This document shows positions 19,531-24,483 of a DNA stretch of 45,251 nucleotides, in pieces (positions within the stretch are counted from its first letter, which is position 1; each line of letters begins with the position of its first letter). A model generated the notes under the pieces. That model was not told where the DNA came from. It was given only the letters and a program-made list of their open reading frames with translations, and ran no database searches. Both the position numbers and the translations under genes were made by a program. Source of the stretch: Deltaproteobacteria bacterium (GTDB lineage: Bacteria; Desulfobacterota; Deferrimicrobia; Deferrimicrobiales; Deferrimicrobiaceae); NCBI GenBank assembly GCA_021824125.1, contig JAKALO010000006.1:1-45251 (forward strand), given 5' to 3'.

Positions 19531-20669
19531 TAGGGTTCGATCTCACAGAAGAGCAGATCGCGTTGCAGGACATGGCCCACAAGTTCGCGGCGAACGAAAT
19601 CCGCCCGAAGGCCGCCGAGTGCGACCAGACCGGGACATTCCCCATGGAGATATTCCGGAAGGCGTTCGACCTGGGGCTCATGACCGGTTTCATACCGGAG
19701 GCGCTCGGGGGGCTTGGACTCGGATCTCTTGAATCGTGCCTCATCGAGGAGGAACTGGCGTGGGGCTGCGCCGGCATCACCACTTCGATGACCTGCAACG
19801 GCCTGGCGCTGACTCCGATTATCCTCGCCGGGACCGAAGACCAGAAAAAGCAATTCGTCGTCCCCTTCGGGACGGAATTCGGGTTCGCGTCCTTCTGCCT
19901 CACGGAGCCGGGCGCGGGCTCGGACGCCGGCGGGATCGCGACCACGGCCAGGAAGGACGGCGACGTCTACGTAATGAACGGCAGGAAGTGCTTCATCACC
20001 AACGGGACCCATGCCTCCCAGTACACGGTGTTCGCCTCCACGGACCGCTCCAGGGGCCACAAGGGGCTCTCCGCGTTCATTGTCCCCCGGTCCCTCCCGG
20101 GAGTCTCCCCCGGCAAGAAAGAGGACAAGATGGGGCAGCGCGCCTCCGACACTTCCGACGTGCTGTTCGAGGAGGTACGCGTCCCGGCGGCGAACCTCCT
20201 GGGGAAGGAAGGCGAAGGTTTCAAGATCGCCATGAAGACGCTGGATTATGCGAGGCCCTCGGTGGCTTCGATGTCGGTCGGGGTGGCCCGGGCGGCGCTC
20301 GAGCTGGCGATGCAGTACTCCAAGGAGCGCGTGCAGTTCGGCGCGCCGATCGCGATGAACCAGGCGATCCACTTCCTGCTGGCCGACATGGCGATGGACA
20401 TCGAGGCGGCGCGCCTGCTCACCCTCAAGAGCGCCTGGCTGCTCGACCAGGGCAGGCGCTGCACGAAGGAATCCTCGTTCGCCAAGGCGTTCGCGGCGGA
20501 CCTGGCCATGCGCGTCACCACGGACGCGGTCCAGATATTCGGCGGGTACGGATACATGAAGGATTACCCGGTTGAGAAGCTGATGCGGGACGCGAAGCTC
20601 TTGCAGATCTACGAGGGTACCAGCCAGATCCAGCGGCTGGTCATCGCCAAGGAGATCATGATGCGGTAG
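19527..20669 (+). CDS. Acyl-CoA dehydrogenase
   Basis: FDLTEEQIALQDMAHKFAANEI, FCLTEPGAGSDAGGIATTA, VYVMNGRKCFITNG, VQIFGGYGYMKDYPVEKLMRDAKLLQIYEGTSQIQRLVIAKEI. Confidence 0.96.
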   Translation: MIGFDLTEEQIALQDMAHKFAANEIRPKAAECDQTGTFPMEIFRKAFDLGLMTGFIPEALGGLGLGSLESCLIEEELAWGCAGITTSMTCNGLALTPIILAGTEDQKKQFVVPFGTEFGFASFCLTEPGAGSDAGGIATTARKDGDVYVMNGRKCFITNGTHASQYTVFASTDRSRGHKGLSAFIVPRSLPGVSPGKKEDKMGQRASDTSDVLFEEVRVPAANLLGKEGEGFKIAMKTLDYARPSVASMSVGVARAALELAMQYSKERVQFGAPIAMNQAIHFLLADMAMDIEAARLLTLKSAWLLDQGRRCTKESSFAKAFAADLAMRVTTDAVQIFGGYGYMKDYPVEKLMRDAKLLQIYEGTSQIQRLVIAKEIMMR

Positions 20670-22320
20670 AAGAGCCTCCCTTGTCGGGATCGCGGCGGGC
20701 CAGCGAGACAAGCTCGTCCGCAGCCGCCGCAAGCTCCTCCCTCCACGGCAGGTTCTCCAGGAAGCGATCGGGTATCGCGGAAGCGCCGAGGTAGGCGCCG
20801 CACAGGCTGCCGGTCATCGAGGCGATGTTTTCCGCGTCGTTGCCGAGGTTCACCGCCGGCAGGACCGCATCGGCGAAGTCCTCCGGGGAGTGGAGGAAGC
20901 AGGCCCAGGCGAACGGCAGCCCCTCCTGGACGGCGCCGCCGTTACCGAGCGCCTCCCGGATCTCCTCGATTCCGGCGCGACGCAGGAGGAGTGCCGCCAG
21001 CTCGGTTCCCACCTTGCGGGAGAGCGTCGGGGACTGCCTGCCCTGGCGGCTGCGTGCCGCGCGATCCGGTTCTATCCCGGTGATCGCCGGCGAGATCCCC
21101 CTGGCGAACCCCAGTACGTCCAGTGTGCCGCAGGGAGTGTGGAGCATCCGGGCGATGGCGGTCGCCTGCACGATTGCGCCCGCGATGGCGGCCGGGTTCG
21201 GATGCGTGATGGCCGCGACTATACCCGCCTCCAGCTTCATCCGCCGGAAGTCGACCGACCGCAGCAGCGAAAGAGGGGTGATCCGGGCCGCCGGCGCGCT
21301 TTCCGGGGAATTGACACCCGCCTCGAACCAGGGGTAGCCGCGGTCGGTCAGGTTCCCGGCGAATTCCGCCTCGGATCCGCCGCGGTGGTGGCCCGAAGCC
21401 GTGGCGATCAGGACGGCGATCTCTTCCGGGTCGACCTTTCCCTGACGGAGCAGCGCCCGGCAGAGAAGGAGGGATGCGGGAGGGGAATCCGTTGCTTCGT
21501 GCTTCCTTCCGTGCTTGCGGAGGGGAGAGTACCCGTCGATCCGACCGTAAAGTTCCCCCACGTCCCGCGGAGAAAGTCCCTGCGCGGACCTTCCCAGCGC
21601 TTCACCTATAGCCGCGCCCGTAAGGGCGCCACGGAACCGGTCGGCGTAGTCGATCCCGGGAACGAAGGAAAGCGGGACGTGCTCCCCCTTGGAAAGGTAG
21701 GCGGGGATCTTCGATCTTCGCACAAGGAACTGGTAGATCGGTTCCGGTTCCTTTCCGAAGAGGAGGGGCTGGTCTTCCCTCCTGCGAGCGAGATCCTTCG
21801 CTTTACGTTCGACGATGGTCGTGATGTGCCGGACGATTTCCCATAGGTCTTCGTTCCCCTGGAGGGGAATCTTAGCGAGGGACCTCGACAGGCAGGAGGA
21901 GATTTCCGAGGGGTCGTGGAGGGTCAGGGCAGTCGCCTGGCGCTCGCCCTCACCCGGCAACGACGCCTGCGCGGAAACGTCCGCAAGCGCGTCACCCACG
22001 CCATCAGGCGTCGCAGGTGGTCCTTCATCGGAAGGATCGGGACTCGCAGCGGTCGGGAGGTCCTCCTGCGGAATATATCCCCGGTAGTGCATCTCCATGA
22101 TCTTTCTTGATTGTGAAGGCGAAAATCGCATTGCCTGCAGAATCTTAAGCAGTGTTTCGCTCCTTGGGATCCTTCCTTTGTAGACCACCTGGCGGAGAAG
22201 TTCGTAGCTGAGCCCCAAATCATTCCGGTCCGAGGCGAATTTTTTTAAGGAGGAATAGCCGAGTGTTTCAATCCGTTTCTTCAGTATTTTCGATAGCAAG
22301 TTTACCGAATTGACAACCAT
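20656..22320 (-). CDS. N-terminal HTH domain fused to ADP-ribosylglycohydrolase (DraG/ARH)-like domain
   Basis: HTH-like N-terminus (LSKILKKRIETLGYSSLKKFASDRNDLGLSYELLRQVVYKGRIPRSETLLKILQAM); ARH-like RFRGALTGAAIGEALG, EATDSPPASLLLCRALL, AAITHPNPAAIAGAIVQATAIA, GNDAENIASMTGSLCGAYLGASAIP. Start placed at MVVNSVNLLSK. Confidence 0.78.
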   Translation of the reverse strand: MVVNSVNLLSKILKKRIETLGYSSLKKFASDRNDLGLSYELLRQVVYKGRIPRSETLLKILQAMRFSPSQSRKIMEMHYRGYIPQEDLPTAASPDPSDEGPPATPDGVGDALADVSAQASLPGEGERQATALTLHDPSEISSCLSRSLAKIPLQGNEDLWEIVRHITTIVERKAKDLARRREDQPLLFGKEPEPIYQFLVRRSKIPAYLSKGEHVPLSFVPGIDYADRFRGALTGAAIGEALGRSAQGLSPRDVGELYGRIDGYSPLRKHGRKHEATDSPPASLLLCRALLRQGKVDPEEIAVLIATASGHHRGGSEAEFAGNLTDRGYPWFEAGVNSPESAPAARITPLSLLRSVDFRRMKLEAGIVAAITHPNPAAIAGAIVQATAIARMLHTPCGTLDVLGFARGISPAITGIEPDRAARSRQGRQSPTLSRKVGTELAALLLRRAGIEEIREALGNGGAVQEGLPFAWACFLHSPEDFADAVLPAVNLGNDAENIASMTGSLCGAYLGASAIPDRFLENLPWREELAAAADELVSLARRDPDKGGSSTAS

Positions 22321-22373
22321 CGGTTGATTCTCCCTGGCATGGGTTGCCCTGTCTTTGGAAATATATAAACAAC

Positions 22374-22434
22374 TAAAATTGTACAATAGCAAAAAATAAT
22401 GTCAACAATAAATGTATAATTGTACTATTGCAAA
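22374..22434 (-). promoter_or_regulatory. Promoter of the HTH-ADP-ribosylglycohydrolase gene with duplicated operator-like element
   Basis: On the minus strand TTGACA (22400-22405), 16-nt spacer, TACAAT (22378-22383); direct repeats TTTGCTATTGTACAATTTTA (22374-22393) and TTTGCAATAGTACAATTATA (22415-22434), 17/20 identical, 41 bp apart. Confidence 0.72.
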
Positions 22435-22464
22435 TAACGTTGCGGGATAGTTGTGTCCGTTGGT

Positions 22465-24483
22465 TTAAAGCGAATCGGCGATTATTTCCGCGATGTCTTT
22501 CGTCTGCACCGATTCGTCCAGGTTGTTGAACTTGGCGGCGTCGTCGAACATGATGAGGCAGTATGGGCAGGATGAGCCGACCGCGTCTGCGCCCGTGCGC
22601 ATCGCCTGGCTGAACCTCAGGTGATTGATGCGTTTCCCCGGCATCTCGAGCCACATCCCTCCGCCACCCCCCCCGCAGCAGAATCCACGCTCGCGGCGCT
22701 TTTCCATCTCCTTGATCGCGATCCCGGGGACCGATCCGATAGCCTCGCGGGGGGCGTCGTAGATGTCGTTGTGCCTGCCCAGGTAGCACGGGTCGTGGAA
22801 CGCCACGGAACGGTTGAACGGCTTCGAGGGCGAGAGCCTTCCCTGCGCGATAAGGTCCCGGAGGAGGACGGTGTGATGGATCGCCTCCACGTTCACCCCG
22901 AATTGCGGGTACTCCTTGCGGAAGGTGTTGAAGCAATGGGGGCACTGCGTGATCACCTTCCTGACTTTGTGGGAGGCGAAGATCTCCTTCACCATCTCGA
23001 CCATGCCGAGCTGGAATAGCCCTTCCTCGCCCATCGGGCGGGCGAATGCCCCGCAGCAGGTCTCCTCGAGCCCGAGCACGGCGTAATTCACCCCCGCACG
23101 GCCCAGCAGCGAGGCGATCGTCCGGGTCACCTTCTGGTTCCGGGGGTCGTAGGACCCGGCGCACCCGGGCCAGTAAAGGTACTCGAACTCCTTTTTGTCC
23201 GCGGCGACGGGCACGTCCAGCCCCTCGGCCCACCGGATGCGGTCGTCTTGCGGAAGCCCCCAGGGGTTCCCCGTGTCGCCCATTTTCTTCAGGGCGGTCC
23301 GCGCGCCGTCCGGTATCTTCGAATTGGAGACATAGCCGCGGCGGACGTCGACGATCATGTCTATATGCTCGACGAGCACCGGGCAGGCCTGCATGCAGGC
23401 CCGGCAGGTGGTGCAGGACCAGATCTCGTCGGGGGAAAGGATTCCGAACGCGAATGGCGTGACGACCGGCTTCCCCGTCTTCCCGTCCACCGCCGCGGTC
23501 GACGGGACCAGGCTCCGGTAGATGTCGCGGCACGCCTGATCCCGGGTCTTGAGTACGACGTCCCTTGGCGAGAGAGGCATCTCGGCGGCGTGGGCCGGGC
23601 ACTCGTCCTGGCACCTGCCGCACTTCGTGCATGCGTCCGACGAGAGGAGCTGCTTCCATGTGAAGTCCAGGACGTCGCTTACCCCGATCTTCTCCTCGTC
23701 CTCGATGTTGGGGATCGGCTGCAGGGCGCCCTTGGGGCGGGAGGTCCGCAGGAATATGTTCGCCGTCCCGGTCGCCATGTGGAACATCTTGGACATCGGG
23801 ATGCAGGCGAGAAAGCCGAAGGCGAGCAGGAGGTGCGTCCACCAGAGCGCGCGGTGCGCGGCAAGGAGGTCTCCCATGGGAACGCCCGCGAAGAGGGGGG
23901 CTATCGCGTTGCTTACGTAGGACACCGGGGCCGCGCCGGGCTTCGTCGCGGCGAGACGGACCGCCTCGATGAGGAAGCCGGTGACCCCTATGGCGAGGAT
24001 GAGGAAGAGCTGGAGGAGGTCGTCTCCGTCTTTCGTAAGCCCTTCCGGCCGGAAAAGGGACCGCCGCGCGAGGGCGACGAGGACCCCCGCCAGGAGGACG
24101 AGGCCGAAGGTGTTCGCGAACAGCTTGAAGGCGAGGTAGAAATCGCCGTCCAGGATACGTACGCCGAAGTCGAATTCGACCGCGACGAGGCAGGTTGCGA
24201 TGAAAAGGACGATGAATGCGGAGTAGATCGCGAGGTGCATGAGGCCGCCGAACTTCGTTTCGAGGACCTTCCGCTGACCGATCCCGATCCGGAGGGCGTC
24301 CAGCGTGCGGCCCCACAGGTTGTCCAGTCGGTCTTCCCTCTCGGCGCGCCCGCTACGGTATGCCCCCACCTTCTGCCAGACCCCCCAGGCGAAGACGAGG
24401 GCCACCACGCAGAAAAGGGAATACATGATCGTCGCCGCCGGGGGATGAAGATTCCACATGATCTCGCGGCCGCTGGTTTTCAA
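22465..24483 (-). CDS. Membrane-anchored Fe-S oxidoreductase (HdrD/GlpC-like, probable ETF:menaquinone oxidoreductase type)
   Basis: N-terminal membrane domain (NarI/HdrE-like), two [4Fe-4S] motifs CTKCGRCQDECP and CTTCRACMQACP, two CCG domains (LEETCCGAFARP; HDPCYLGRHNDIYD...GFCCGGGGGGMW). Confidence 0.85.
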   Translation of the reverse strand: MKTSGREIMWNLHPPAATIMYSLFCVVALVFAWGVWQKVGAYRSGRAEREDRLDNLWGRTLDALRIGIGQRKVLETKFGGLMHLAIYSAFIVLFIATCLVAVEFDFGVRILDGDFYLAFKLFANTFGLVLLAGVLVALARRSLFRPEGLTKDGDDLLQLFLILAIGVTGFLIEAVRLAATKPGAAPVSYVSNAIAPLFAGVPMGDLLAAHRALWWTHLLLAFGFLACIPMSKMFHMATGTANIFLRTSRPKGALQPIPNIEDEEKIGVSDVLDFTWKQLLSSDACTKCGRCQDECPAHAAEMPLSPRDVVLKTRDQACRDIYRSLVPSTAAVDGKTGKPVVTPFAFGILSPDEIWSCTTCRACMQACPVLVEHIDMIVDVRRGYVSNSKIPDGARTALKKMGDTGNPWGLPQDDRIRWAEGLDVPVAADKKEFEYLYWPGCAGSYDPRNQKVTRTIASLLGRAGVNYAVLGLEETCCGAFARPMGEEGLFQLGMVEMVKEIFASHKVRKVITQCPHCFNTFRKEYPQFGVNVEAIHHTVLLRDLIAQGRLSPSKPFNRSVAFHDPCYLGRHNDIYDAPREAIGSVPGIAIKEMEKRRERGFCCGGGGGGMWLEMPGKRINHLRFSQAMRTGADAVGSSCPYCLIMFDDAAKFNNLDESVQTKDIAEIIADSL

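Follow-up and report, generated by a model that had tools for sequence, protein, structure and literature searches.

Which protein, if any, reads the repeated AT-rich element that covers the promoter of a gene for a helix–turn–helix (HTH) protein with an ADP-ribosylglycohydrolase (ARH) fold? The element lies in the window, the whole 45,251-nucleotide stretch of deltaproteobacterial DNA analysed here (contig JAKALO010000006.1), within the 144 bp on the minus strand between an Fe–S/cysteine-rich (CCG) oxidoreductase gene (24483–22465) and a co-directional gene with its ATG at 22320, which encodes a protein of 554 amino acids (20656–22320, minus strand), hereafter the regulator. The original prediction took two 20-bp direct repeats around this promoter for an autoregulatory operator of the adjacent HTH protein.

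A six-half-site array over the promoter

Both copies of the repeat match TTTGCWATWGTACAATTWTA with no mismatch, at 22415–22434 (upstream copy, TTTGCAATAGTACAATTATA) and at 22374–22393 (downstream copy, TTTGCTATTGTACAATTTTA) on the minus strand. As had been described, they are identical at 17 of 20 positions and stand in an exact 41-bp register around a promoter of the form TTGACA-16-TACAAT. They form the best 20-mer direct repeat of the 144-bp intergenic region; in 500 dinucleotide shuffles of this spacer the best repeat reached at most 16/20 (four times) and never 17/20. A promoter scan placed the promoter at 22405–22378 (minus strand), with 11 of 12 matches over the −35 hexamer TTGACA (22400–22405) and the −10 hexamer TACAAT (22378–22383). 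The AT-rich island is equally plain, with a GC content of 0.25 over 22350–22449 compared with 0.62 at 22000–22099 and 0.62–0.68 beyond 22500. No other match to TTTGCWATWGTACAATTWTA was found in the window at up to three mismatches, and the genome-wide motif scan that had been proposed returned no further site for the 17-bp core of the 20-mer within two mismatches in the whole 2.6-Mb genome.

The operator claim held in that the element is real and conserved, but the two 20-bp repeats are fragments of a larger structure. Two flanking half-sites (GCAA, 22443–22440; TTGT, 22372–22369) and a constant N6 spacing had been missed, and with them each 20-bp repeat becomes part of a three-half-site triad. 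The full array, RCAA-N6-TTGY-N6-RCAA-N27-TTGY-N6-RCAA-N6-TTGT, spans 75 bp (22369–22443, minus strand), is matched with no mismatch in its own genome and has a dyad axis near 22406. The A triad, upstream of the −35 hexamer, consists of half-sites A1 (GCAA, 22440–22443), A2 (TTGC, 22430–22433, within the upstream 20-bp copy) and A3 (ACAA, 22420–22423). It is followed by the 27 bp that contain the −35 hexamer, and then by the B triad. As expected of an autoregulatory operator, the B triad overlaps the gene's own promoter: B1 (TTGC, 22389–22392) lies in the promoter spacer, B2 (ACAA, 22379–22382) inside the −10 hexamer (nACAAT) and B3 (TTGT, 22369–22372) over the inferred transcription start, all on the minus strand. 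Because the pattern matches both strands at one place, the array is dyad-symmetric, besides containing the 41-bp direct repeat of A2–A3 and B1–B2. Successive half-sites follow one another every 10 bp, or one turn of the helix, as fits an HTH dimer, and the 41-bp register is about four turns. The oriented half-site has T (81%) or C (19%) as its fourth base and prefers A (64%) as its fifth.

Conservation through the family

A search with the HTH domain recovered one orthologue each in 20 of the 24 family genomes, representing 10 of 11 genera, and the HTH domains of the other orthologues are 40–73% identical to that of the window. Across the 20 upstream regions, TTGY-N6-RCAA occurred 32 times and RCAA-N6-TTGY 30 times, whereas any other gap occurred at most five times; shuffled upstream regions contained a mean of 0.24–0.25 pairs and a maximum of three. 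With one genome per genus (10 genera), there were still 18 and 18 N6 pairs, against a shuffle maximum of two. Anchored on B1 and without gaps, the arrays of 17 orthologues from nine genera aligned over all 75 bp with no indel. The half-site consensus is kept at the same register in all 17 for B1 and B2 (TTGY and RCAA), in 15 for A1 (RCAA) and A2 (TTGY), in 14 for A3 (RCAA) and in 13 for B3, which is missing from the four genomes of genera g4, g7 and g8. Identity between genera, again with one genome per genus, is 0.894 at the half-sites compared with 0.39–0.42 in the N6 spacers and 0.27–0.32 in the flanks, and when the bases of the region were permuted, identity at half-site positions did not exceed 0.37. 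Phylogenetic footprinting, which had been suggested as a check, thus finds the array upstream of 17 of 17 orthologues in nine genera, and reduced forms in the tenth, the opposite of the lack of conservation that had been named as refuting the prediction.

These figures bear on a first alternative, in which there is no operator and the repeats of an ordinary AT-rich promoter arose by chance or from base composition. The island is indeed very AT-rich, its promoter is near consensus, and the −10 hexamer by itself supplies TACAAT. Yet the N6 spacing and the register are fixed over nine genera with unconserved spacers, and the gap counts, shuffles, gap-free alignment and permutation together refute an origin in chance or AT-richness. 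Moreover, the A triad persists in the same register within GC-rich sequence in g4, g7 and g8 (for example, ACAAGGGACGTTGCCTCCCGGCAA in g4), and in genus g6 (L013–L016) most half-sites are kept although the −35 hexamer has decayed to TAAAAA, CTAAAA or ACAAAA; what is conserved is therefore not merely a promoter. We give chance repeats practically no credence. The g6 decay itself suggests either a changed promoter strength or a promoter that depends on an activator. The limit of conservation is genus g2, the most divergent (three genomes, HTH 40–43% identical), which has only part of the array and lacks the 41-bp arrangement.

A second alternative assigns the array to the upstream Fe–S oxidoreductase gene (22465–24483, minus strand), as a terminator or other 3′ element. 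This gene is a conserved neighbour that lies before the array in almost every genome, and in g4, g7 and g8 part of the array sits inside a terminator-like hairpin (for example, ACAAGGGACGTTGCCTCCCGGCAACATCCCTTTTTT), which is apparently common to the array and the end of the preceding Fe–S gene. However, the array keeps a fixed geometry relative to the downstream promoter, with its 16-bp spacer and constant half-site offsets, and most genera have no hairpin at the array. One g2 genome (G011) has no homologue of the Fe–S neighbour and yet retains ACAA-N6-TTGT-N6-ACAA ahead of the regulator gene. A role for the array in the Fe–S gene is thus very improbable, and that gene is probably not a target.

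Some features of individual genomes are recorded here in their own right. The A triad of L020, L021, L022 and L023 (g8, g4 and g7) is embedded in a hairpin, which in most of them resembles a terminator, with a T run after it. In L020 and L022 (g8), about 10 bases separate the end of the −10 hexamer from the ATG, so the g8 transcript may be leaderless; most other genera have a leader of about 50 bases.

Gene order around the array is similarly stable. Most of the family shares divergent FAD oxidase and Fe–S/CCG genes, the Fe–S oxidoreductase, the regulator, a convergent acyl-CoA dehydrogenase, TetR and IclR; because this synteny extends through most of the family, we consider the locus to be vertically inherited. 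In the window, the 3′ ends of the regulator and acyl-CoA dehydrogenase genes overlap by 14 bp (20656–20669). Public records of the relatives carry Deltaproteobacteria MAG labels, such as CSP1-8, FeB_35 and UBA2219. One record, L048 (JAENIX010000012.1), is titled Actinomycetota; its gene order and the 83–90% identity of its neighbouring proteins fit the deltaproteobacterial family, and it is probably mislabelled.

The apparent single target and the encoded protein

At up to three mismatches, the full pattern occurs at exactly one place in each of 18 of the 24 family genomes. That place lies in every case upstream of the regulator gene, and a reversed control pattern gave no match in the same scan. 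Single triads elsewhere in the 24 genomes appear only at about the control frequency, and a search of these genomes for a wider regulon carrying full or half arrays found nothing above control level; these are pattern scans, for which single 14-bp palindromes are too degenerate. Among 395 genomes of the phylum, ten matched at up to two mismatches, all within the family and all at the regulator gene, with no array in the 379+ sampled genomes outside it. Spread to viruses was also considered and dropped: IMG/VR contigs held no exact array match, and neither the array nor a relative of the protein was found in viral contigs. The HTH, too, is single-copy per genome and confined to the regulator gene. 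Given an array unique to its own promoter and a single-copy HTH, the regulator seems, on these comparisons, to have a single strong target, besides which weaker single-palindrome targets may exist. Gene and array are both missing from four family genomes; these are 61–98% complete, and in one of them (G013) the Fe–S gene runs off the contig exactly where the regulator gene would follow, so we give this co-loss no weight.

The regulator consists of an N-terminal HTH (residues 8–78), a linker, a conserved middle segment and an ADP-ribosylglycohydrolase fold (231–519). In an AlphaFold2 model, the HTH domain encoded by the first 85 codons (22066–22320, minus strand) has five helices (residues 4–20, 25–31, 39–47, 54–63 and 68–78; mean pLDDT 83.8), as expected for the Cro/CI (XRE) fold, in which helix 3 is the recognition helix. 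Residues S38, Y39, E40, R43 and Q44, in or beside this putative recognition helix (residues 39–46), are almost invariant, as would be expected if the helix reads an invariant half-site. Foldseek matched the 85-residue domain mainly to XRE proteins, with C.BclI, C.Esp1396I, XRE regulators, HipB and lambda repressor among the most similar; for several XRE proteins the probability was about 1.00 and the TM score 0.61–0.66, but the E-values were weak (best only 0.09). No Pfam HTH profile reached threshold (best E-values 0.068 and 0.12, for HTH_3 and HTH_31), and a sequence search of solved structures with the HTH profile returned nothing. We therefore name the domain Cro/CI-like by predicted fold only, and assign it to no Pfam HTH family. 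The linker (about 86–133) is disordered in the model. Residues about 139–225, which lead to the ARH fold (...KIPxxGNEDxWE...DQPLLFxKEPExIYQFLVR...), are among the best-conserved parts of the protein and have no Pfam match.

The C-terminal domain belongs to the ADP-ribosylglycohydrolase family by profile (PF03747, E = 8.9e-41; 140.9 bits against a curated cut-off of 26.2) and by fold (TM score 0.84 to the structure of MJ1187, normalised to the target). Compared with five canonical enzymes that have the motifs, including two encoded by genomes of this family, all three catalytic features are lost in 19 of 19 full-length orthologues: the catalytic Glu, which is now Q or L, and the TDDT and DxDT motifs. 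The label HTH–ADP-ribosylglycohydrolase that the gene had been given is thus right about the HTH and the fold but not about an enzyme; with three motifs lost, the regulator should not be called an active glycohydrolase, and activity is unlikely judging from these residues. The domain is probably a sensor or an oligomerisation domain. When the fusion was sought outside the family, the 395 genomes of the phylum yielded ARH-domain matches only, and the best match beyond the family, at 2.6e-48 in G281, belongs to a canonical enzyme that retains TDDT and has no such HTH.

Probable autoregulation and related systems

From the comparative evidence, an array at 17 of 17 orthologues that is unique to this gene in each genome, the original inference of autoregulation gains strong support, and the encoded protein very probably controls its own gene. 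We infer that its HTH would read the TTGY half-sites and that dimers would occupy the two three-half-site clusters flanking the −35 hexamer. At 41 bp, or about four helical turns, the equivalent pairs would lie on the same face of the DNA. The proximal cluster overlaps the spacer and −10 hexamer of the promoter as well as the inferred start, and the bound protein, with its large C-terminal domain probably bridging both clusters, would block RNA polymerase such that the gene represses itself. The dead ARH fold would probably sense a ligand or serve oligomerisation and so set the release of repression; an ADP-ribose- or NAD-like metabolite would be a natural guess for the ligand. That the array is a dedicated operator of the downstream gene, with dimers on both triads, bridging and self-repression, is in our judgement a strong likelihood on the sequence evidence. 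Several points weigh against it: any DNA-binding protein that targets only the regulator promoter would leave an equal footprint, a regulator that targets only itself is functionally odd, the three g2 genomes keep only part of the array, and the HTH matches combine weak Foldseek E-values with no Pfam family at threshold.

The first of these points is the core of another reading, in which a different transcription factor binds the array, with the regulator gene as its sole detectable target, and the encoded HTH binds elsewhere. Sequence cannot by itself name the protein that binds the array, and the genome offers the encoded HTH no second array, which holds equally for any other factor. To posit a separate regulator whose only target is six half-sites at the gene of a DNA-binding protein, kept through nine genera, is less parsimonious, and HTH and array occur in the same genomes, each in one copy; we regard a separate factor as improbable. 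Less improbable, if still unlikely, is autoregulation of another sign, as activation or as a dual switch: RNA polymerase would be recruited from the distal triad, and repression from the proximal one would set in when the protein is abundant. A pair of sites, the distal one ahead of the −35 hexamer and the proximal one over the −10, resembles the switches of restriction–modification (R-M) controller (C) proteins (PMC4321490), to which the fold matches also lead, and a decayed −35 hexamer with a retained operator, as in g6, is what an activator-dependent promoter would show. Against such a switch, the near-consensus promoter of most genera (TTGACA, nACAAT, 16 bp) should not need an activator, and invariance is highest at B1 and B2, the half-sites over the promoter (17/17).

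For the preferred reading, self-repression, there are partial precedents. The lambda-type and XRE proteins CI, HipB and SinR are autorepressors that use palindromic half-sites one helical turn apart, with several sites around their own promoter. The regulator differs from them in its TTGY half-site, alternating 3 + 3 array, invariant 41-bp register and pseudo-enzyme C terminus. The controller proteins C.Csp231I and C.Esp1396I share the predicted HTH fold and bind ahead of their own gene at two dimer sites; in C.Csp231I both sites have the form CTAAG-N5-CTTAG, with an extended 18-bp spacer between them whose length matters, and a looped tetramer has been modelled (PMC4321490). C proteins are small and encoded beside R-M genes, whereas the regulator has 554 residues, its two clusters hold three half-sites each and lie 27 bp apart, and its neighbours, none of them R-M genes, are the Fe–S oxidoreductase, acyl-CoA dehydrogenase, TetR, IclR, FAD oxidase and an alpha/beta hydrolase. 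With DraG, ARH3 and MJ1187 it shares the ADP-ribosylglycohydrolase fold and family (PF03747), but unlike them it has an HTH and lacks the catalytic Glu, TDDT and DxDT.

A parallel in principle is the Nudix-related transcriptional regulator NrtR, which likewise joins an HTH to a degenerate metabolite-hydrolase fold. MsNrtR has a degenerate Nudix motif and no detectable activity, represses its own gene and releases DNA in response to ADP-ribose (PMC6800001). NrtR, however, has an N-terminal Nudix fold, a C-terminal HTH and an NAD-biosynthesis regulon, whereas the regulator has no Nudix match, carries its Cro/CI-like HTH ahead of the ARH fold and shows no second target; it may work like NrtR at most by analogy. 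The principle is thus known from NrtR and R-M controllers, which the regulator resembles, and what is new is the fusion, the dead ARH domain and the single-target array, none of which turned up in a literature search. Nor did that search, which covered few subscription papers, find work linking an ADP-ribosylglycohydrolase to autoregulation or to a pseudoenzyme role in transcription.

A bolder combination would make the regulator a single-target repressor, kept throughout the family, with the dead ARH domain as its ADP-ribose/NAD sensor, the triads bridged across the −35 hexamer, and a second, non-transcriptional role for the protein. We hold this for a speculative minority view; if such a role were real, the effect on the cell would come from a protein whose level the circuit sets. 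With its 75 bp, six half-sites and fixed spacing, the array offers a precisely defined DNA target for an HTH–pseudo-ADP-ribosylglycohydrolase architecture that had not been described. Most sampled members of the family, which is known largely from metagenomes, have conserved this architecture. As an ARH-fold counterpart to the Nudix-fold NrtR, it makes the use of dead ADP-ribose hydrolases as transcription-factor sensors a directly testable question, and it indicates that an elaborate operator can persist throughout a family for a regulator with no other detectable target.
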